A stretch of DNA of 64,000 nt from Prochlorococcus marinus str. MIT 0917 (lineage in GTDB: Bacteria; Cyanobacteriota; Cyanobacteriia; PCC-6307; Cyanobiaceae). A program made the translations under genes and the position numbers. Below the pieces are notes generated by a model. That model saw only the letters and a list, made by a program, of their open reading frames with translations. It did no database searches and was not told where the DNA came from. Where the stretch lies: positions 805,819 to 869,818 of the forward strand of contig NZ_CP114784.1 in assembly GCF_027359575.1 (NCBI RefSeq), in the 5' to 3' direction. Every line of letters starts with the position of its first letter. Within the stretch, counting starts at the first letter, position 1. This document shows, piece by piece, positions 1 to 7,361 of this stretch.

Positions 1-453
1 CAGACAAATAAATTAGCGACTGATAATTTGTATAGAGAAGTAGAGAAAAGAAATGTAGATCCAAAACGTTTAATCTTCGCAAATCCAGTTAAATTTAATT
101 TACATTTAGCAAGACACTCTCTTGGAGATCTTGGACTTGATACTTTTAACTTTAATGGTCATAAAACAACTTTTGATGCATTAAGTGCAGGATTACCAGT
201 CCTAACAAAAATTGGAGAAAACTTTACCGCAAGAGTTTCATCAAGTCTATTAAATTCAATAGGCTTGCCAGAACTAATTACATATAATGAAAATGAATAT
301 GAAGAAACAGCATTACGACTAGCAAATAATAGTGATGAACTTTTTAAATTAAAATCTAAGCTATCAAAACTAATGAAAGAACCAACACATTTTTCTTCAA
401 AATTATATACTCAAGATCTTGAATCAATTTATACTAATCTTGTTAAAGAATAA
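1..453 (+). CDS. TPR/GT41 (SPINDLY/OGT-like) glycosyltransferase, 3' end only
   Basis: This is the C-terminal 150 residues of a GT41-family (O-GlcNAc transferase/SPINDLY-like) glycosyltransferase; the 5' part lies outside the window. The open frame runs from base 1 without a start. It carries the family's C-terminal blocks, such as NPVKFNLHLARHSLGDLGLD, NGHKTTFDALSAGLPVLT and RVSSSLLNSIGLPELI, which belong to the nucleotide-sugar binding half. It matches the end of the next gene (2742-3194) except for one base at 41 (Val for Ala) and a whole codon at 226-228 (Thr for Val). A spacer of 188 bp separates it from that gene on the same strand. The missing N-terminus is probably a TPR array like the neighbour's, but that is inferred. 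Confidence 0.9.
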   Translation, partial: QTNKLATDNLYREVEKRNVDPKRLIFANPVKFNLHLARHSLGDLGLDTFNFNGHKTTFDALSAGLPVLTKIGENFTARVSSSLLNSIGLPELITYNENEYEETALRLANNSDELFKLKSKLSKLMKEPTHFSSKLYTQDLESIYTNLVKE

Positions 454-479
454 TCTTATACGCACTTGAAGAAATCGGT
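1..479 (+). repeat. Long direct repeat, copy 1 (GT41 C-terminus)
   Basis: Bases 1 to about 479 repeat at about 2742-3221. In the coding part (453 bp) I see four substitutions, three of them in one codon. The match continues about 26 bp past the stop codon, with one single-base indel. The left boundary is cut by the window edge. Confidence 0.9.
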
Positions 480-1505
480 GGTTAATTGCAAACGTCTTTA
501 TTTTCATTGGCTTTGAAATAATTGCTTCCTTTTCTAGGGAGATAATTTCTTTCTTAATAAAAGGGAGCCAAGATCTATTCAAAGCTAAAACCTCAGTGAA
601 AGTTATAATCATAATTAATAGGTCTTTCTAAACAAATAAATGTGACTGAGGGAAAAAGAAATCAAAAGAAAGCAGGCTTTGAATTCAAAACATTCAAAGT
701 ACCATTTGATTTAGAAGAATTCGAAGAAAATATCACTTTGACTTCGAACACTCCTTCTAAACTTTCTAAAGAACAAATAATTAACCAAGCATTTAAATTT
801 CATGCAGAAGGCAACATTTTAGAAGCAATAAAATATTATAAATATTTCATAGATCAAGGATTTAGTGACTACAGAGTTTTTTCTAATTATGGAGGACTTT
901 TATTGAGTTGTGGCAAACCACAAGAAGCAGAATTATCAACACGAAAAGCAATTGAACTAAAACCTGATTTTGCTGATGCTCATTTAAATCTGGGAAGCAT
1001 ATTGAGAGATCTTGGCAAGTCAAAAGAAGCTGAATTATCAACACGAAAAGCAATTGAACTAAAACCTCAATCAGCAGATGCTCATTTAAATCTGGGAAGC
1101 ATATTTAAAGATCTTGGCAAATTACAAGAAGCTGAATTATCAACACGAAAAGCAATTGAACTAAAACCTGACTTAGCAGATGCTCATTTGAATCTAGGAA
1201 ACATATTGAGAGATCTTGGAAGATTACAAGAAGCAGAATTATCAACACGAAAAGCAATTGAACTAAAACCTGACTTAGCAGATGCTCATTTGAATCTGGG
1301 AAATATATTGAGGGATCTTTGCCAATTAGAACAAGCAGAAATATATCAACGAAAAGCAATTGAAATCAAGCCAGATTCCGCAAATGCTTATGCTAGCTTG
1401 GGTAACGTTTTGAGGGATCTTGGCAAATTAGAACAAGCAGAAATATATCAACGAAAAGCAATCGAACTTAATCCGGATTTCGCAAATGCATATTCCAATC
1501 TTGGA
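471..1505 (+). repeat. Long direct repeat, copy 1 (spacer plus TPR N-terminus)
   Basis: Bases 471-1505 recur at 3400-4434, offset 2929, with no difference found on line-by-line reading. The repeat includes about 170 bp of upstream spacer, the GTG start and codons for the first 288 residues. It ends inside a TPR codon, where the two genes become unrelated. Confidence 0.92.
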
Positions 1506-3194
1506 AACATTTTAAGAGAGCTTCGTAAATTACAAGAAGCTGAATTATATACTCGTAAAGCTATTAAACTTGTGCCTGATTTCGCAGAGTTTCATTCCAA
1601 TCTTGGAAACATATTAAGAGATCTTGGCAACTTAAAAGAAGCGGAAATTTCATATCTTAAAGCTATTGAACTTAATCCTGATTTAGGAATTGCACATTAT
1701 AACCTTGGAAATATATTAAGAGATCTTGGGAACTTAAAAGAAGCAGAATTATCCACTCGTAAATCGATTGAACTTAAACCAGATAACGTTGTTGCTCATA
1801 ACAATCTTGGAAGTATATTGAGTGAGCTTGGAAAACTTGATGATGCAATAAATCAATACAAAAAAGCTCTAAAATTAAACAATCAATCATCAACGGCGAA
1901 GCTTGGTTTAATTGAAAATAAAGGCTATATCTGCGACTGGAGTGATCTAGATATACAAACCATTTGGCTAAAGAATCTTGGTATTGAAGGATCTTCTGTT
2001 TCACCACTTGGTTTACTTTATTATGAAGATAATCCATTGAGGAATTTAAAAAGAAGTAAAAAATATTTTAAAGAAAAATATTATCGACCAACTAAAAAAA
2101 TAATACATACTAAAAAAAATATAATTCATATAGGTTATTTCTCTGCTGATTTCCGTAATCATCCTGTAATGCAACTAATTGCTCCCTTACTTGAGTTGCA
2201 TGATAAATCTAGGTTTAAAATATATTTATACTCATTTGTTAAAAAAGAAGATGAATATACTGAAAGAGCAAGAAATTCTGGATGTATATTTAGAGACATA
2301 AGCAAGTTAAATAATATCCAAGCTGTCGAATTAGCAAGGGGTGACAACATTGATATTGCTGTTGATCTAATGGGTTATACAAGAAATAATAGGTTTAATA
2401 TATTTTCTTATAGAGTCGCACCTATTCAAATAAATTATTTGGGATATCCTTCTACTGTTGGTTCTAATATTATTGATTATATTATTGCAGATAAAATTGT
2501 AATTCCAGATAATTATGAGAAATTCTACGCAGAAAAGATACTAAGAATGCCAAATTGTTATATATGTAATGATGATAAAATCAAAATAGATAAAGAACTT
2601 ATTTCTCGAAAAGATTTCAACCTACCTGAGAAAGGATTTATCTTTACTTGCTTTAATAATAATAAAAAAATCACACCAAAAGAGTTTGATATTTGGATGA
2701 GATTACTAATTAAAATAAAAGGAAGTATACTTTGGTTGAAACAGACAAATAAATTAGCGACTGATAATTTGTATAGAGAAGCAGAGAAAAGAAATGTAGA
2801 TCCAAAACGTTTAATCTTCGCAAATCCAGTTAAATTTAATTTACATTTAGCAAGACACTCTCTTGGAGATCTTGGACTTGATACTTTTAACTTTAATGGT
2901 CATAAAACAACTTTTGATGCATTAAGTGCAGGATTACCAGTCCTAACAAAAATTGGAGAAAACTTTGTGGCAAGAGTTTCATCAAGTCTATTAAATTCAA
3001 TAGGCTTGCCAGAACTAATTACATATAATGAAAATGAATATGAAGAAACAGCATTACGACTAGCAAATAATAGTGATGAACTTTTTAAATTAAAATCTAA
3101 GCTATCAAAACTAATGAAAGAACCAACACATTTTTCTTCAAAATTATATACTCAAGATCTTGAATCAATTTATACTAATCTTGTTAAAGAATAA
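642..3194 (+). CDS. TPR-repeat GT41 family glycosyltransferase (SPINDLY/OGT-like)
   Basis: This 850-residue protein has about eleven TPR units (roughly residues 45-450) followed by a GT41 catalytic region (about 490-850). GT41 enzymes move GlcNAc or another sugar from a nucleotide donor onto Ser/Thr of proteins; the real donor and target here are unknown. Seen in the sequence: GYFSADFRNHP with His507, at the position of the OGT active-site His, and FNNNKKITP with Lys676, at the position of the OGT donor-binding Lys, plus the C-terminal NGHKTTFDALSAGLPVLT block. Four TPR units are near-identical 102-bp DNA repeats. The start is GTG at 642; an overlapping ATG at 640 runs straight into TGA. The next gene shares its first 288 residues. 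No signal peptide or membrane segment is seen, so it is probably cytoplasmic. Confidence 0.9.
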   Translation: MTEGKRNQKKAGFEFKTFKVPFDLEEFEENITLTSNTPSKLSKEQIINQAFKFHAEGNILEAIKYYKYFIDQGFSDYRVFSNYGGLLLSCGKPQEAELSTRKAIELKPDFADAHLNLGSILRDLGKSKEAELSTRKAIELKPQSADAHLNLGSIFKDLGKLQEAELSTRKAIELKPDLADAHLNLGNILRDLGRLQEAELSTRKAIELKPDLADAHLNLGNILRDLCQLEQAEIYQRKAIEIKPDSANAYASLGNVLRDLGKLEQAEIYQRKAIELNPDFANAYSNLGNILRELRKLQEAELYTRKAIKLVPDFAEFHSNLGNILRDLGNLKEAEISYLKAIELNPDLGIAHYNLGNILRDLGNLKEAELSTRKSIELKPDNVVAHNNLGSILSELGKLDDAINQYKKALKLNNQSSTAKLGLIENKGYICDWSDLDIQTIWLKNLGIEGSSVSPLGLLYYEDNPLRNLKRSKKYFKEKYYRPTKKIIHTKKNIIHIGYFSADFRNHPVMQLIAPLLELHDKSRFKIYLYSFVKKEDEYTERARNSGCIFRDISKLNNIQAVELARGDNIDIAVDLMGYTRNNRFNIFSYRVAPIQINYLGYPSTVGSNIIDYIIADKIVIPDNYEKFYAEKILRMPNCYICNDDKIKIDKELISRKDFNLPEKGFIFTCFNNNKKITPKEFDIWMRLLIKIKGSILWLKQTNKLATDNLYREAEKRNVDPKRLIFANPVKFNLHLARHSLGDLGLDTFNFNGHKTTFDALSAGLPVLTKIGENFVARVSSSLLNSIGLPELITYNENEYEETALRLANNSDELFKLKSKLSKLMKEPTHFSSKLYTQDLESIYTNLVKE
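930..1337 (+). repeat. Tandem 102-bp TPR DNA repeats
   Basis: Four head-to-tail units begin at 930, 1032, 1134 and 1236, each 102 bp (34 codons, one TPR). Each starts with the same codons for ELSTRKAIELKP and differs at only a few bases. The same block recurs inside the second long repeat at 3859-4266. Confidence 0.9.
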
Positions 3195-3221
3195 TCTTAT
3201 ACGGCACTTGAAGAAATCGGT
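2742..3221 (+). repeat. Long direct repeat, copy 2 (GT41 C-terminus)
   Basis: This is the partner of bases 1-479. It covers the last 453 bp of the complete GT41 gene and about 27 bp after its stop, ending in a short GAAATCGGT motif that recurs at 3400-3408. Confidence 0.9.
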
Positions 3222-3570
3222 TGTAAATTATATTTTCATATCAAATCAAGTCTCATAAATTGTTCAAACAAATAATGGATTTAAGCTATTGCTCCAGCGA
3301 AATTTTTATTTCCTTATTAGTTTCCAATCTATGGTAAATAAAGAGAATTGCTAAAGTTAGCTATAAAATTTGCTGAGGTAAGGAAGTTTTATCATTAATG
3401 AAATCGGTGGTTAATTGCAAACGTCTTTATTTTCATTGGCTTTGAAATAATTGCTTCCTTTTCTAGGGAGATAATTTCTTTCTTAATAAAAGGGAGCCAA
3501 GATCTATTCAAAGCTAAAACCTCAGTGAAAGTTATAATCATAATTAATAGGTCTTTCTAAACAAATAAAT
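3195..3570. other. Spacer between paralogous TPR genes, no gene seen
   Basis: These 376 bp separate the GT41 gene from the TPR-oxygenase gene. I see no credible ORF. The right half (3400-3570) is identical to the spacer before the GT41 gene and so probably carries the shared promoter and leader. A direct repeat GAAATCGGT lies at 3213-3221 and 3400-3408; the spacer at 454-641 equals this one with the 187 bp between the repeats removed, apart from one further base. Confidence 0.8.
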
Positions 3571-4434
3571 GTGACTGAGGGAAAAAGAAATCAAAAGAAA
3601 GCAGGCTTTGAATTCAAAACATTCAAAGTACCATTTGATTTAGAAGAATTCGAAGAAAATATCACTTTGACTTCGAACACTCCTTCTAAACTTTCTAAAG
3701 AACAAATAATTAACCAAGCATTTAAATTTCATGCAGAAGGCAACATTTTAGAAGCAATAAAATATTATAAATATTTCATAGATCAAGGATTTAGTGACTA
3801 CAGAGTTTTTTCTAATTATGGAGGACTTTTATTGAGTTGTGGCAAACCACAAGAAGCAGAATTATCAACACGAAAAGCAATTGAACTAAAACCTGATTTT
3901 GCTGATGCTCATTTAAATCTGGGAAGCATATTGAGAGATCTTGGCAAGTCAAAAGAAGCTGAATTATCAACACGAAAAGCAATTGAACTAAAACCTCAAT
4001 CAGCAGATGCTCATTTAAATCTGGGAAGCATATTTAAAGATCTTGGCAAATTACAAGAAGCTGAATTATCAACACGAAAAGCAATTGAACTAAAACCTGA
4101 CTTAGCAGATGCTCATTTGAATCTAGGAAACATATTGAGAGATCTTGGAAGATTACAAGAAGCAGAATTATCAACACGAAAAGCAATTGAACTAAAACCT
4201 GACTTAGCAGATGCTCATTTGAATCTGGGAAATATATTGAGGGATCTTTGCCAATTAGAACAAGCAGAAATATATCAACGAAAAGCAATTGAAATCAAGC
4301 CAGATTCCGCAAATGCTTATGCTAGCTTGGGTAACGTTTTGAGGGATCTTGGCAAATTAGAACAAGCAGAAATATATCAACGAAAAGCAATCGAACTTAA
4401 TCCGGATTTCGCAAATGCATATTCCAATCTTGGA
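3400..4434 (+). repeat. Long direct repeat, copy 2 (spacer plus TPR N-terminus)
   Basis: This is the partner of 471-1505: 1035 bp with no mismatch that I could find. Identity stops at codon 289 of the two genes, within a TPR. Confidence 0.92.
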
Positions 4435-5265
4435 CTCATATTAATTGATCTTGCCAAATCAAAAGAAGCAGAGATTCATATTATAAAAGCAAATAAAATC
4501 GAACCTAATTCTGCACAATTTAAGTTAAACTTAGCTATTTGCCAGCTTGCTCTTGGAAATATAACTTCTTCAATATCAACACTCGAATTGGCCTATAAAA
4601 TAAATCCTAAAGACATACAAATAAAATGCTTGTTGTCTATTCTAAATGGAAGAAATATAGATAAGTTAAAAAGCTTAAGACTAGAAAAGATATTAAATTC
4701 ACAATTCGAGGAAAAGTTAGATTGGAAGCCACTTGTGCTACATAGGCCTATAGAGAAAGAACTAATACAAAAACTATATACTCTTAAAACTCAAGAAGCT
4801 TCAAATCAAGATAGATATCCACGTCCAATCTTTGGCAACATAAAAGGATCAGACTATGATTTGTTTGAAACTAAAACACCTATAATAATAAATTTCAAGA
4901 AAGATCTAATTAATATACTAAGTGTATATTTTGAATCTGAAATCTTCATTACTGATTCATTTTTCAATATAATACAACCTAAAGATGGTATTGGAGGAGG
5001 TAATAAAATTCACAATCATCTTAATGAAATAGACAAAATACCTGAAATTGATATCTCCAAACAAAAGTTTAGTTTAGTATATTATTTATCTATAGGGGAT
5101 CAAAATTGTCTAGAAAAAGGTAAATTGCAATTTCATCAACCAAACCAAGATTTTCTACCTGGTGAAGGAATGATAGTTATATTTCCTGCCTCTAAATTAC
5201 ATTCTGTATCTTACAATGGTAAAAAGGATCGGGTTGTTATAGTAGTTAATTTTTATATCGTTTAA
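3571..5265 (+). CDS. TPR protein with C-terminal 2OG-Fe(II) oxygenase-like domain
   Basis: This 564-residue protein has residues 1-288 (six or seven TPRs) identical to the GT41 gene upstream. Two more divergent TPR-like units and a linker follow. The C-terminal 160 residues resemble the 2OG-FeII_Oxy_5 group found in marine cyanobacteria and their phages. Visible features are a metal-type His pair IHNHLNE (His481, His483), a SLVYYLSIGD strand, GEGMIVIFPASKLHSV with distal His544, and Arg554 in KKDRVVIVV for 2-oxoglutarate. Such enzymes hydroxylate proteins or small molecules; the substrate is unknown. The start is the same GTG as in the paralogue. The abrupt switch from perfect identity to unrelated sequence points to recombination or gene conversion rather than slow divergence. 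Confidence 0.82.
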   Translation: MTEGKRNQKKAGFEFKTFKVPFDLEEFEENITLTSNTPSKLSKEQIINQAFKFHAEGNILEAIKYYKYFIDQGFSDYRVFSNYGGLLLSCGKPQEAELSTRKAIELKPDFADAHLNLGSILRDLGKSKEAELSTRKAIELKPQSADAHLNLGSIFKDLGKLQEAELSTRKAIELKPDLADAHLNLGNILRDLGRLQEAELSTRKAIELKPDLADAHLNLGNILRDLCQLEQAEIYQRKAIEIKPDSANAYASLGNVLRDLGKLEQAEIYQRKAIELNPDFANAYSNLGLILIDLAKSKEAEIHIIKANKIEPNSAQFKLNLAICQLALGNITSSISTLELAYKINPKDIQIKCLLSILNGRNIDKLKSLRLEKILNSQFEEKLDWKPLVLHRPIEKELIQKLYTLKTQEASNQDRYPRPIFGNIKGSDYDLFETKTPIIINFKKDLINILSVYFESEIFITDSFFNIIQPKDGIGGGNKIHNHLNEIDKIPEIDISKQKFSLVYYLSIGDQNCLEKGKLQFHQPNQDFLPGEGMIVIFPASKLHSVSYNGKKDRVVIVVNFYIV

Positions 5266-5302
5266 TTTAAAATCAATATTTTTTAAATCGATATAAGAAA
5301 CA

Positions 5303-5425
5303 ATGATAAGACTTGCAAGCAACCCAAATTCAATGTCTAATATAAAAACCAAATTAAAAAATACAGAGATAAATAATATATTATTTGATTCAGAAAAAGT
5401 CACTCTTAATTTAGAAAAAATATAG
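5303..5425 (+). pseudogene. Fossil of a GT41 glycosyltransferase C-terminus
   Basis: A 40-codon open frame encodes RLASNPNSMSNIKTKLKN, then FDSEKVTLNLEKI and a stop. This is the pattern of the last 40 residues of SPINDLY/OGT-like enzymes (RLA-N, K-KL, then T--LE-IY) and aligns with RLANNSDELFKLKSKLSK and TQDLESIY at the end of the intact gene, but is clearly diverged. It begins 37 bp after the TPR-oxygenase gene and has a stop codon just upstream, so it is a remnant rather than a gene. This is similarity by eye. Confidence 0.6.
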
Positions 5426-5486
5426 TAAAATCTTATAAAGTACTTAGAAAATAAGAAATAGGACTAAAGAAGATTTAAACAAACAA

Positions 5487-5630
5487 TCACTTATTATTTT
5501 CTATTAAAAAATTTTGATTATATATCTCGTCGAAAAAACTATTCAAAGCAGCTTCTGAAAAATTTTCCCTAATCTTCCAATTAATTTCAAAGGATGGTTT
5601 AGTTTTTCTTGAATTTAAGGTCTCCTTCAT
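5487..5630 (-). CDS. Possible small ORF or gene remnant
   Basis: A 47-codon frame from ATG at 5630 to TGA at 5487. The product is basic and aromatic, with the segments FEINWKIRENFSEAALNSFF and DEIYNQNFL, which look protein-like rather than random. The frame is open for six more codons upstream of the ATG, and GAAGGAG lies at the ATG itself rather than upstream. It may be the C-terminal scrap of a larger glycosyltransferase-type gene. I do not recognise it. Confidence 0.25.
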   Translation of the reverse strand: MKETLNSRKTKPSFEINWKIRENFSEAALNSFFDEIYNQNFLIENNK

Positions 5631-5765
5631 TAATTGATAAAAGTTTTCTAGTCAATCAAAATTTAATTGCGTTTTAAGAATTTGTCCAAAAGAAAATGGT
5701 CAATAACAAAAATTTACCAACAGAATCACCCAGATAATCTTAAAAAAATTCATAATTTCATTTAT

Positions 5766-5966
5766 CTATAACCTAAATTCCACTCTTTCTAGAGATTTTT
5801 GTACAAACTGATACTTTTCCACATTTTTCTCTTTTCCTGATATTACAAAAAGTTTTGTCCGAGGATTTTGACATGAACTTTTCAATGTATCAAGAGATAC
5901 AAAAACCTTGAAACTAACTGCAGCGCCTAGAATAAGTTGTAATATTTTTTTTTGTAATTTATCCAC
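5766..5966 (-). CDS. Possible small hypothetical protein, 66 aa
   Basis: The frame runs from GTG at 5966. The N-terminus contains a short hydrophobic stretch (ILQLILGAAVSFKVFVSL) that could be a single membrane segment or signal anchor; the rest is polar and lysine-rich. The amino-acid composition is better than in random frames of this AT-rich area, but there is no good ribosome-binding site and no recognised family. It could be a genuine lineage-specific protein or chance. Confidence 0.35.
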   Translation of the reverse strand: MDKLQKKILQLILGAAVSFKVFVSLDTLKSSCQNPRTKLFVISGKEKNVEKYQFVQKSLERVEFRL

Positions 5967-6091
5967 TTATTCAATTGACATGACCCCCTTAATGAGATTT
6001 TATTTAATTATGAATTTTGTGGAAAAGTGGAAAACCCTTATTTAACAACTAAAAATCTAATTTTTTTTATTGATCTTAAAAGGAGAAGACA

Positions 6092-6157
6092 TTGATTCTA
6101 AATATAATTCTGGAGGTTGCAACAGACACAATTCACCCCCAAGAAAACAACCTATAG
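6092..6157 (+). CDS. Possible micro-ORF with strong Shine-Dalgarno
   Basis: A 21-codon frame starts at TTG 6092, preceded seven bases earlier by AAAAGGAG (6078-6084), the best ribosome-binding site in the gene-poor stretch. The product MILNIILEVATDTIHPQENN ends one residue later at TAG. I recognise no family. It may be the 5' end of a decayed gene. Confidence 0.2.
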   Translation: MILNIILEVATDTIHPQENNL

Positions 6158-6166
6158 CTAGCCAAT

Positions 6167-6274
6167 CTAGTCTTTATAGCTCAAACAACTTTGCTCTTCT
6201 TCTACATCTTTAATTACTAATTCCATTTCCTTTTCTTGAGAATCAATTTTTTTAAAACCTAAAACTTCAATAGT
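6167..6274 (-). pseudogene. Possible remnant of a decayed gene
   Basis: Thirty-five sense codons are open between two stops and encode an acidic, protein-like segment, IEVLGFKKIDSQEKEMELVI followed by KDVEEEQS, with no suitable start before an internal ATG. It reads like the C-terminal scrap of a lost gene, but chance cannot be excluded. Confidence 0.2.
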
Positions 6275-6465
6275 TTAATTACCTAGAGAATTTTCAAAAA
6301 ACTTTTTTTTATAATCATAAATTTTTGAATAAAAAAAATAATCATGAACTAATTTCAATTGTTTATGTTGAAAGTAAGTTTTTTAATAAGCCTATTAATT
6401 AATTTATTAATTTATTTTGCTGACTTTAAAACCACCAAAAGACAATTTTGAGTAATAGTAATTGT

Positions 6466-6696
6466 ATGCATAATCCTTTCTCCATTTATTGGAATAAAAA
6501 TTGGACCTTTCAAGTAGTACATGGAGAAGGTGGTATTTATATAGAAGCAAAAGGATTGGGGCTTCTAATAAGAAAACCTTTATTAGCAACTGAAAGCCCT
6601 ATTACTGCAGCAGATAATTTGGTTTATAGCGAAGATAAAAATAGAAAATCTTTATTCAACGCTTGGAAGTCAAAAAAAATTAATAATCTTAATTAG
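6466..6696 (+). CDS. Small conserved-looking hypothetical protein, about 76 aa
   Basis: The start is the ATG at 6466; an in-frame TTG at 6448 would add six residues. The product has no signal or membrane segment. It looks like a compact folded domain, with FSIYWNKNWTFQVVHGEGGI, YIEAKGLGLLIRKPL and a C-terminal SLFNAWKSKK. Composition and codon pattern look coding, unlike the DNA just upstream. It converges with lexA, whose stop lies 15 bp away. I do not recognise a named family; it resembles small proteins restricted to Prochlorococcus and marine Synechococcus, but that is an impression only. Confidence 0.55.
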   Translation: MHNPFSIYWNKNWTFQVVHGEGGIYIEAKGLGLLIRKPLLATESPITAADNLVYSEDKNRKSLFNAWKSKKINNLN

Positions 6697-6710
6697 TTTT
6701 TAAAATAGAG

Positions 6711-7319
6711 TTAAGTTTTCCTCCACACAGCTACTAACTTTCCCTGAACATATACTTGTTCAGCATCAATTTCTATAGGTTCATAGGATGTATTAGCGGC
6801 TTCTAAACGAACTAAACTTCCATCACGAAAAAAATGTTTCAAAGTAGTTCCCAATCCGGGAACCATAGCACTAACAATAGTTCCGTCTCTCAGACGAGAA
6901 GGGTCATTAACAGGTTCCATTAAAACCATATCTCCGTCTGCAATAAAAGAATCAATCATTGAATCTCCATTTACCGTCAAAGCAAAAAGTCCCTTTAATT
7001 GAAGAACTGAATTTAAATCCAGAGTTTCCTGTACATCATCAAAAGTTTCAACTAACCCACCTGCAGCGATTGCTCCTAAAACAGGAACGCCCGAAATAGT
7101 CTCCTCTATTAATTGCAGTGTTCTTGCCTGACCTTCTTGCCATTTTATCCAGCCTTTTTGTTGCAAATGTCTTAAACGGCTTTGGATTGGTGCCGGAGAT
7201 CTTAGTCCCATAGCTTGCATCATCTGCCTAATTGAAGGGCTGTGATGATGAGCTCCAATAAAATCTACAAGCCAGTCATAGAGTTCTTGCTGGGCAGTAG
7301 TTAAAGCTTCTTCTGGCAT
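6711..7319 (-). CDS. lexA: LexA repressor
   Basis: This 202-residue protein is of usual LexA length. An N-terminal winged-helix DNA-binding domain (about 1-70, with SPSIRQMMQAMGLRSPAPIQ) is followed by a self-cleaving S24 domain. The Ala86-Gly87 cleavage bond, nucleophile Ser120 (in NGDSMID) and base Lys161 (in TTLKHFF) are all present, so it should be cleavable on RecA activation. I chose ATG 7319: the frame is open to TTG 7349, but that extension would be coding through one of the two operator-like palindromes. In cyanobacteria LexA controls DNA repair and in some species other genes. Regulation is probably autogenous through the twin sites just upstream. argF ends 65 bp upstream on the same strand. 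Confidence 0.95.
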   Translation of the reverse strand: MPEEALTTAQQELYDWLVDFIGAHHHSPSIRQMMQAMGLRSPAPIQSRLRHLQQKGWIKWQEGQARTLQLIEETISGVPVLGAIAAGGLVETFDDVQETLDLNSVLQLKGLFALTVNGDSMIDSFIADGDMVLMEPVNDPSRLRDGTIVSAMVPGLGTTLKHFFRDGSLVRLEAANTSYEPIEIDAEQVYVQGKLVAVWRKT

Positions 7320-7331
7320 TCGAATGGTTTG

Positions 7332-7361
7332 AGTACATATGTCCTTCAATACATATGTACC
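7332..7361 (-). promoter_or_regulatory. Twin LexA-type operator upstream of lexA
   Basis: Two ACATATGT palindromes at 7335-7342 and 7351-7358 lie 16 bp apart, centre to centre. With flanks they read AGTACATATGTCC (plus strand) and GGTACATATGTAT (minus strand), each one base off the cyanobacterial SOS box as I recall it (RGTACNNNDGTWC). Their place just before the lexA ATG fits autorepression. Confidence 0.7.

Follow-up and report, generated by a model that had tools for sequence, protein, structure and literature searches.

A mosaic array of leader-TPR genes in a hypervariable island of Prochlorococcus marinus MIT 0917

The 64-kb window analysed here, positions 805819-869818 of the 1,924,674-bp single-contig genome of Prochlorococcus marinus str. 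MIT 0917 (G000), opens with three adjacent genes, A, B and C, whose products carry tetratricopeptide repeats (TPRs). These genes form the edge of a 45-gene family in which a common leader-TPR front precedes varied back ends. Within the family fronts and backs are unlinked, and their shuffling is well supported. It is probable that A, B and C belong to a family of modifying enzymes expanded in the genus, in which recombination in the TPR-coding region swaps fronts and backs and which plays a role at the cell surface under pressure from phages or grazers.

The A-B-C array and its enzyme domains

Gene A (803800-806271 in the genome, 823 aa) lies mostly upstream of the window, which holds its TPR- and GT41-encoding 3' end (1..453, + strand; PF13844 with E 4.7e-26 on the tail). 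After a spacer of 188 bp (454..641) follows gene B (642..3194, +; 850 aa), which encodes a leader, a TPR array and a GT41 catalytic domain resembling that of O-GlcNAc transferase (OGT). A second spacer of 376 bp (3195..3570) separates it from gene C (3571..5265, +; 564 aa), which has the same leader and TPR front as B and a predicted 2-oxoglutarate (2OG)-Fe(II) oxygenase back. The open reading frames (ORFs) of B and C are both intact and start with GTG. The 1.4 kb between C and lexA (5266-6700) has a G+C content of 25% and contains small ORFs only, for example 6448-6696.

Ungapped comparison bore out the two blocks on which the first-pass annotation had built its description of a mosaic. The tail of A (1-453) and that of B (2742..3194, +) differ at four positions (41, 226, 227 and 228), and the match extends 9 bp beyond the stop codon. 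The front cassettes of B (471..1505, +) and C (3400..4434, +), each consisting of 171 bp of upstream DNA and 288 codons, are identical over all 1035 bp; chance is no issue for such a match, and zero differences put the upper limit of divergence at about 0.3% (rule of three). The same annotation was right that the catalytic domains of B and C are unrelated, but the TPR repeats of the two genes are still about 78% alike over 140 bp beyond position 1505. Likewise, the similarity between A and B is not limited to the last 453 bp but covers 1353-1380 bp at 96.4%. The annotation's description of blocks shared in different combinations was correct, but the blocks are not independent of each other. 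The 9-bp repeat GAAATCGGT at the A-B junction (471..479, +) occurs exactly three times in the window, with further copies at 3213-3221 and 3400-3408, and is absent from the other strand of the 64 kb. When the 187 bp between the 9-bp repeats are removed from the B-C spacer, the A-B spacer results, apart from one 1-bp indel. A tail, spacer and B front on the one hand and B tail, spacer and C front on the other are therefore two copies of one tandem unit.

On this evidence gene B is a hybrid with a C-like front and a back like that of A and of gene D (767874 in the genome), the product to be expected if two adjacent genes underwent unequal exchange in their TPR arrays. The proposal of very recent duplication or ongoing gene conversion is supported. 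Upstream of the tail, 44 of 897 positions are different in A and B, as against 4 of 453 within it (Fisher P 6e-5), with no synonymous change in the 151 codons of the tail. Part of the middle of B is closest to gene 767874, about 36 kb away (99% over one 150-bp step), and A, B and 767874 all have nearly the same tail. Since A and B differ by 3.6% and the B and C fronts not at all, at least two events are needed. A single crossover as the whole story of the origin of B was rejected because the two divergences are unequal. In the common back (window 1845-3194), A and B codons show 27 nonsynonymous and 9 synonymous differences, hinting at relaxed or diversifying selection.

Gene B is predicted to encode an OGT-like TPR-GT41 protein: it scores 246.8 bits with PF13844 (gathering score 25), and its GT41 region (1911..3191, +) aligns with XcOGT (2jlb) over query residues 6-408 of 427 and also with human and other OGT chains (3pe3, 5a01). 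For C, PF13640 yields 28.5 bits with the C-terminal 213 aa (cut-off 27) and 26.3 bits, just under the cut-off, with the whole protein. Among the NCBIfam matches listed for B (25 of 33) and C (25 of 28), none reached its cut-off. As the catalytic domain of C (4666..5262, +) had no match among the sequences of solved structures at E 1, an AlphaFold2 model was made (built from 5 sequences, mean confidence score pLDDT 73). It resembles 3bvc_A (Z 13.5, root-mean-square deviation 3.3, 160 residues aligned) and the prolyl hydroxylase 4j25 (Z 12.3, deviation 3.6, 166 aligned), and the back of C is accordingly modelled as a double-stranded beta-helix and predicted to be a 2OG-Fe(II) oxygenase. H116, H118, D123, H179 and R189 are invariant in the 5 sequences and may include the metal ligands. 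HxD/E is the usual motif at the metal site of 2OG oxygenases; the C domain carries HxH near the presumed site. In the AlphaFold2 model of the whole protein the TPR superhelix is confident and residues 1-38, the leader, have a pLDDT below 50 and are predicted to be disordered; the model's best structural match is the TPR domain of OGT (1w3b).

Unlinked fronts and backs in the leader-TPR family

The front of B matches 46 places in G000, and 45 family ORFs were collected from 313 kb of this genome. They amount to 85,131 bp, or 4.4% of the genome. Two islands (751-811 kb and 1358-1399 kb), together with smaller clusters, contain most of them. Most members begin with the same leader of about 40 residues, with the core K-T-F-x-V-P-F-x-L...ENIxI; in an alignment from four genomes P21 is conserved at 91%, L24 at 89%, V20 at 84% and F18 at 81%. 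No signal peptide or other secretion signal was noticed in the leaders by eye. The leader is followed by a TPR superhelix with a period of 34 aa and then by a back that falls into one of some ten sequence classes, several of which are known enzyme families. Of the 45 ORFs, 41 have a back end 100 aa long or longer; the other four have none. Clustering divided the 41 backs into 12 GT9-like (a weak label, 19 bits against a cut-off of 22), 6 GT41, 5 sulfotransferase, 5 methyltransferase, 3 oxygenase, to which Pfam adds C, 3 of one class of unknown kind, 2 TylF-like and 4 singletons; 20 of the 41 were scanned with Pfam and the remainder assigned by clustering, and the GT9-like and GT41 groups merge when four genomes are clustered together.

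The TPR-only family genes 1710997, 1712441, 1379036 and 785124 (L022:5997-9435, L018:9036-10343 and L015:5124-5717) have the next ATG frame directly 3', as if front and enzyme had been split into two genes; the gene directly after 785124 encodes a carbamoyltransferase. One TPR cluster is adjoined by an ORF for 353 aa of Ala/Lys-rich short repeats (L020:7870-8931, -), and a perfect 246-bp direct repeat (L020:2318-2563 and 2593-2838, starts 275 bp apart) lies about 6.6 kb before a TPR cluster.

When family proteins of G000 were compared with the complete genome G002, the best matches of front and back fell on the same gene in 1 of 40 cases, as opposed to 59 of 59 among the non-family proteins with both matches (99 tested). 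A run with another database also gave one concordant family gene, but a different one. In six genome directions concordance (1/40, 1/37, 1/36, 0/30, 2/31 and 0/30) was nowhere above chance. Permutation tests covered three complete genomes in six directions and backs of at least 180 aa. Here the best match of the N100 front (100 aa) coincided with that of the back's first half in 4 of 202 cases (permutation mean 4.5) and with that of its second half in 9 of 205 (mean 5.1, within the permutation range); for the N190 front the figures were 3 of 203 and 4 of 206 (means 5.0 and 4.9). The two halves of the back agreed with each other in 128 of 203 cases (mean 12.1). Direct cases are also available: in three within-genome pairs the backs are 95-98% identical and the leaders about 50-54% alike, and fronts identical at 97-100% are joined to different back classes.

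Such fronts recur in all four complete genomes studied (G000, G002, G198 and G148; chosen stretches only for G198 and G148, which contributed 39 and 12 family ORFs, with front matches at 43 and 18 places). With thresholds of at least 95% identity and at least 300 bp, seven front pairs were found, five of which join different back classes. Besides B/C (1035 bp, no mismatch), these are 1377360/1379997 (1008 bp, no mismatch; a sulfotransferase and the class of unknown kind), 784219/806609 (857 bp, 2 mismatches) and 763549/948656 (1004 bp, 28 mismatches) in G002, 836589/839973 (649 bp, 1 mismatch) and 1019272/1022174 (524 bp, 7 mismatches; the second gene without a back end) in G198, and 1328305/1732125 (922 bp, 7 mismatches; 404 kb apart, both in the glycosyltransferase cluster) in G148. 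The suggestion that such arrays can reshuffle TPR and catalytic ends is thereby extended from one locus to the whole genome and to four genomes. Near-identical fronts at different loci in every complete genome also argue against misassembly. A perfect 1035-bp repeat is a known hazard, and in the assembled sequence, on which the analysis is based, the fronts of B and C or the way they are joined to the backs could in principle be mis-resolved; given the intact ORFs, the distinct flanks, the coherent 187-bp deletion between 9-bp repeats and the independent front pairs of G002, G198 and G148, we regard this as very unlikely.

Pairs of near-identical backs include blocks of 1597 bp (1 mismatch) and 1816 bp (5 mismatches) in G198 and of 741 bp (1 mismatch) in G000. 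Relative to the start codon, shared fronts begin anywhere from -171 to +79; their other limit is inside the TPR array or no more than about 40 bp from where the array ends. Most back blocks extend from within or close to the TPR array to the vicinity of the stop codon. Three deviate from this: the 741-bp block begins some 160 bp inside the back, and two short blocks of G002 (337 and 318 bp) end within the back. That the front cassettes end at differing points of the TPR array speaks against a programmed switch operated by a site-specific recombinase or by an integrative element of the tycheposon type. This alternative is very improbable, even though several clusters contain or adjoin tRNA genes (tRNA-Arg at 750097, two tRNA-Ala inside the island, tRNA-Asn at 1522696). 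By hand count a tRNA gene is found within 5 kb of 4 of 10 clusters, where about 3 are expected. Exchange by a tycheposon or integrase was rejected: the genome has only two Phage_integrase (PF00589) matches, at 1782869 and 1888318, away from the clusters, in a search that did not extend to serine recombinases and transposases.

The hypervariable island beside lexA

The array lies in a hypervariable glycan island whose borders are the core genes rsmI and, on the right-hand side, lexA (6711..7349, -; TIGR00498), both above their NCBIfam cut-offs. In G000 the island contains kdsA, rmlA and rmlB, again above cut-off, together with genes for DegT aminotransferases, epimerases and a carbamoyltransferase. 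Both borders are present in G000, G002, G095 and G022, and the distance between them is 63.8 kb, about 70.8 kb, 6.6 kb and 10.5 kb, respectively. Two tRNA-Ala(GGC) genes inside the island (L015:6192-6266, +, and L015:15694-15768, -) differ at 7 positions and are followed by about 80 bp of similar sequence; the first has the lower score and resembles a duplicate in decay.

The collection searched contains a single genome per species. In it, 34 of 41 genomes of the genus, G000 included, yielded lexA. Its island side was compared in 20 of the 33 relatives, mostly over 12 kb each, with family back classes labelled in the relatives and glycan genes scanned in G000 alone; lexA thus provides an equivalent position with the same core-gene neighbours in the window and 20 relatives. 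As the G021 sequence ends too soon, 19 stretches were informative. A-B-C is beside lexA in none of these 19, and an equal structure with equal divergence in distant strains, which would have spoken against the first-pass interpretation, was not encountered. Gene content at this place varies among the 19 relatives, at least 12 of which have a leader-TPR gene there, with varied back classes. The back of C is present in 18 of 41 genus genomes including G000, with at most 65% identity elsewhere; in G198 it is encoded near 1.20 Mb, away from lexA at 0.90 Mb. Two other Prochlorococcus genomes have two neighbouring ORFs with C-like oxygenase backs (L073:3-3341 and L094:3992-7857).

Each of the 41 sampled genomes of the genus has a match to the front, with E 2.5e-19 or better in 37 and a weak one in four. 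Beyond the genus it was matched in 76 of 359 genomes of the family, never more than 6 times in one genome (12 candidates were scored in each). No match was found in 15 genomes from other families of the class. Single-contig genomes have 46, 43, 43, 18, 17 and 3 matches (not genes), the last figure, with one weak match, belonging to G095 of the same genus. A phage origin of the front was rejected, as the leader matched none of 50,697 phage records at E 1e-3 and 11 pattern hits in viral contigs included no confirmed relative of the 288-aa front.

These numbers bear on the possibility that the TPR proteins serve photosystem assembly or low-light regulation. In the portion of PMC11357015 concerned with TPR Pfams, these are most represented in low-light strains, and their enrichment in low-light Prochlorococcus is read as related to photosystems or heterotrophy. 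For the present family such a function is very improbable, because its TPRs share a polypeptide with oxygenase or glycosyl-, sulfo- or methyltransferase domains, many of the genes lie among kdsA, rmlA and rmlB in the hypervariable island, and G095 manages with three matches only.

The array could also be a neutral by-product, with repetitive TPR paralogs recombining and duplicates being born and dying to no adaptive end. TPR repeats alone provide homology, the 27:9 ratio in the A and B backs is close to that of unconstrained codons (a rough hand estimate), and copy number falls to the three matches of G095. On the other hand, about 4% of two small genomes is kept in the family and 41 of 45 ORFs retain a back; the median pairwise ratio of nonsynonymous to synonymous substitution rates is 0.32 for TPR1, indicating constraint, and 0.55 for the leader, indicating weak constraint; and the front is present throughout the sampled genus. 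A purely neutral origin is a serious though less likely alternative.

Proposed recombination, possible surface role and known systems

TPR-coding repeats provide in-frame homology between otherwise unrelated genes, so that homologous recombination, by unequal crossing-over and gene conversion and presumably of the RecA type, could exchange two kinds of cassette independently. The front cassette would comprise the start region, leader and TPRs, the back cassette the catalytic domain up to about the stop codon. With A and C as neighbours, unequal exchange between their TPR arrays would have produced hybrid B; one spacer copy would then have lost 187 bp between 9-bp repeats, and the B/C fronts and the A/B tails would have been homogenised at a later time, unless it was the back of A that diverged. 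The enzymes may act in the cytosol on glycans or proteins destined for the surface that are made with the same island. Changed pairs of front and back would change the surface and with it recognition by phages or grazers, whose pressure would favour reshuffling.

Several observations weigh against this reading. Two 50-aa leader halves agree in just 31 of 212 cases (permutation mean 7.7, maximum 18); the leader thus resolves orthology poorly, and part of the discordance between front and back may be noise. Among 16 reciprocal-best back pairs the median leader identity is 56.4% as compared with 52.5% for random pairs (P 0.07), and a few such pairs keep similar leaders (75% for 1371272/1386293). 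The genes 762827 and 786475, one of 7 pairs with backs at least 85% identical, share both back (89.8%) and leader (75.8%), so that whole-gene duplication also occurs. One crossover does not suffice for the array, A and B differing upstream of the tail while the fronts of B and C are identical. Nor does the island change entirely from genome to genome, since G198, G267, G329 and G020 have pieces or a few neighbouring genes in common beside lexA, G198 and G267 also a GT9-like family gene at the same place. Lastly, the putative surface function is deduced from the neighbouring genes. The direct cases, that is near-identical backs with unlike leaders and near-identical fronts with different backs, are independent of the poor resolution of the leader.

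A more speculative extension, to which we lend limited credence, is that the conserved, disordered leader acts as a common docking tag. It would recruit several chemistries to one common substrate or assembly, and recombination would keep reassigning TPR specificity to catalytic domains, making the TPR region a combinatorial generator of enzymes for surface decoration.

Streamlined Prochlorococcus genomes are expected to shed paralogs, and yet about 4% of two of them consists of one mosaic enzyme family. Should shuffling indeed alter surface chemistry, it would be a concrete genetic source of the surface diversity met by phages and grazers, and the 'TPR enrichment' of low-light strains would shift from photosynthesis to modification enzymes. 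The family also offers a natural experiment in how readily TPR domains re-pair with different enzymes. The section of PMC7779031 on the unique-gene class counts TPR proteins, glycosyltransferases, methyltransferases and epimerases among its most abundant annotated products. In the open full-text literature, judged by titles and the beginnings of abstracts and with subscription papers and preprints outside its scope, no description of the leader-TPR enzyme family or its shuffling was found. Within that literature the island type is known, and the common-leader family with many kinds of back and shuffled fronts and backs appears to be new.

B resembles O-GlcNAc transferase, SPINDLY and XcOGT (GT41) in combining TPRs with a full GT41 domain. 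Ordinarily OGT is encoded by one or a few gene copies in which the pairing of TPRs and GT41 is fixed, whereas here the same front is also found on other enzymes. C likewise corresponds to AspH in its TPRs and double-stranded beta-helix oxygenase domain; AspH is among the matches of the whole-C model and prolyl hydroxylases are among those of the C domain, but identity is just about 10-16% and C has HxH. With polymorphic toxins and silent pilin cassettes the family shares a constant front and an exchanged C-terminal part, but the parts exchanged here resemble glycan-, sulfate- and methyl-modifying enzymes, the leaders have no secretion signal noticed by eye, and both products are full-length frames. 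By its location and its changing gene content the island conforms to the replacement flexible genomic islands, which passages of Lopez-Perez et al. (2014; PMC4033161) describe as surface-glycan islands. As far as those passages go, the two are alike in having the same core-gene borders, varying content and glycan-type genes, as well as in homologous recombination with no integrase nearby. There, clusters are swapped between strains, whereas here single genes also appear to be recut between paralogs at their TPR repeats.

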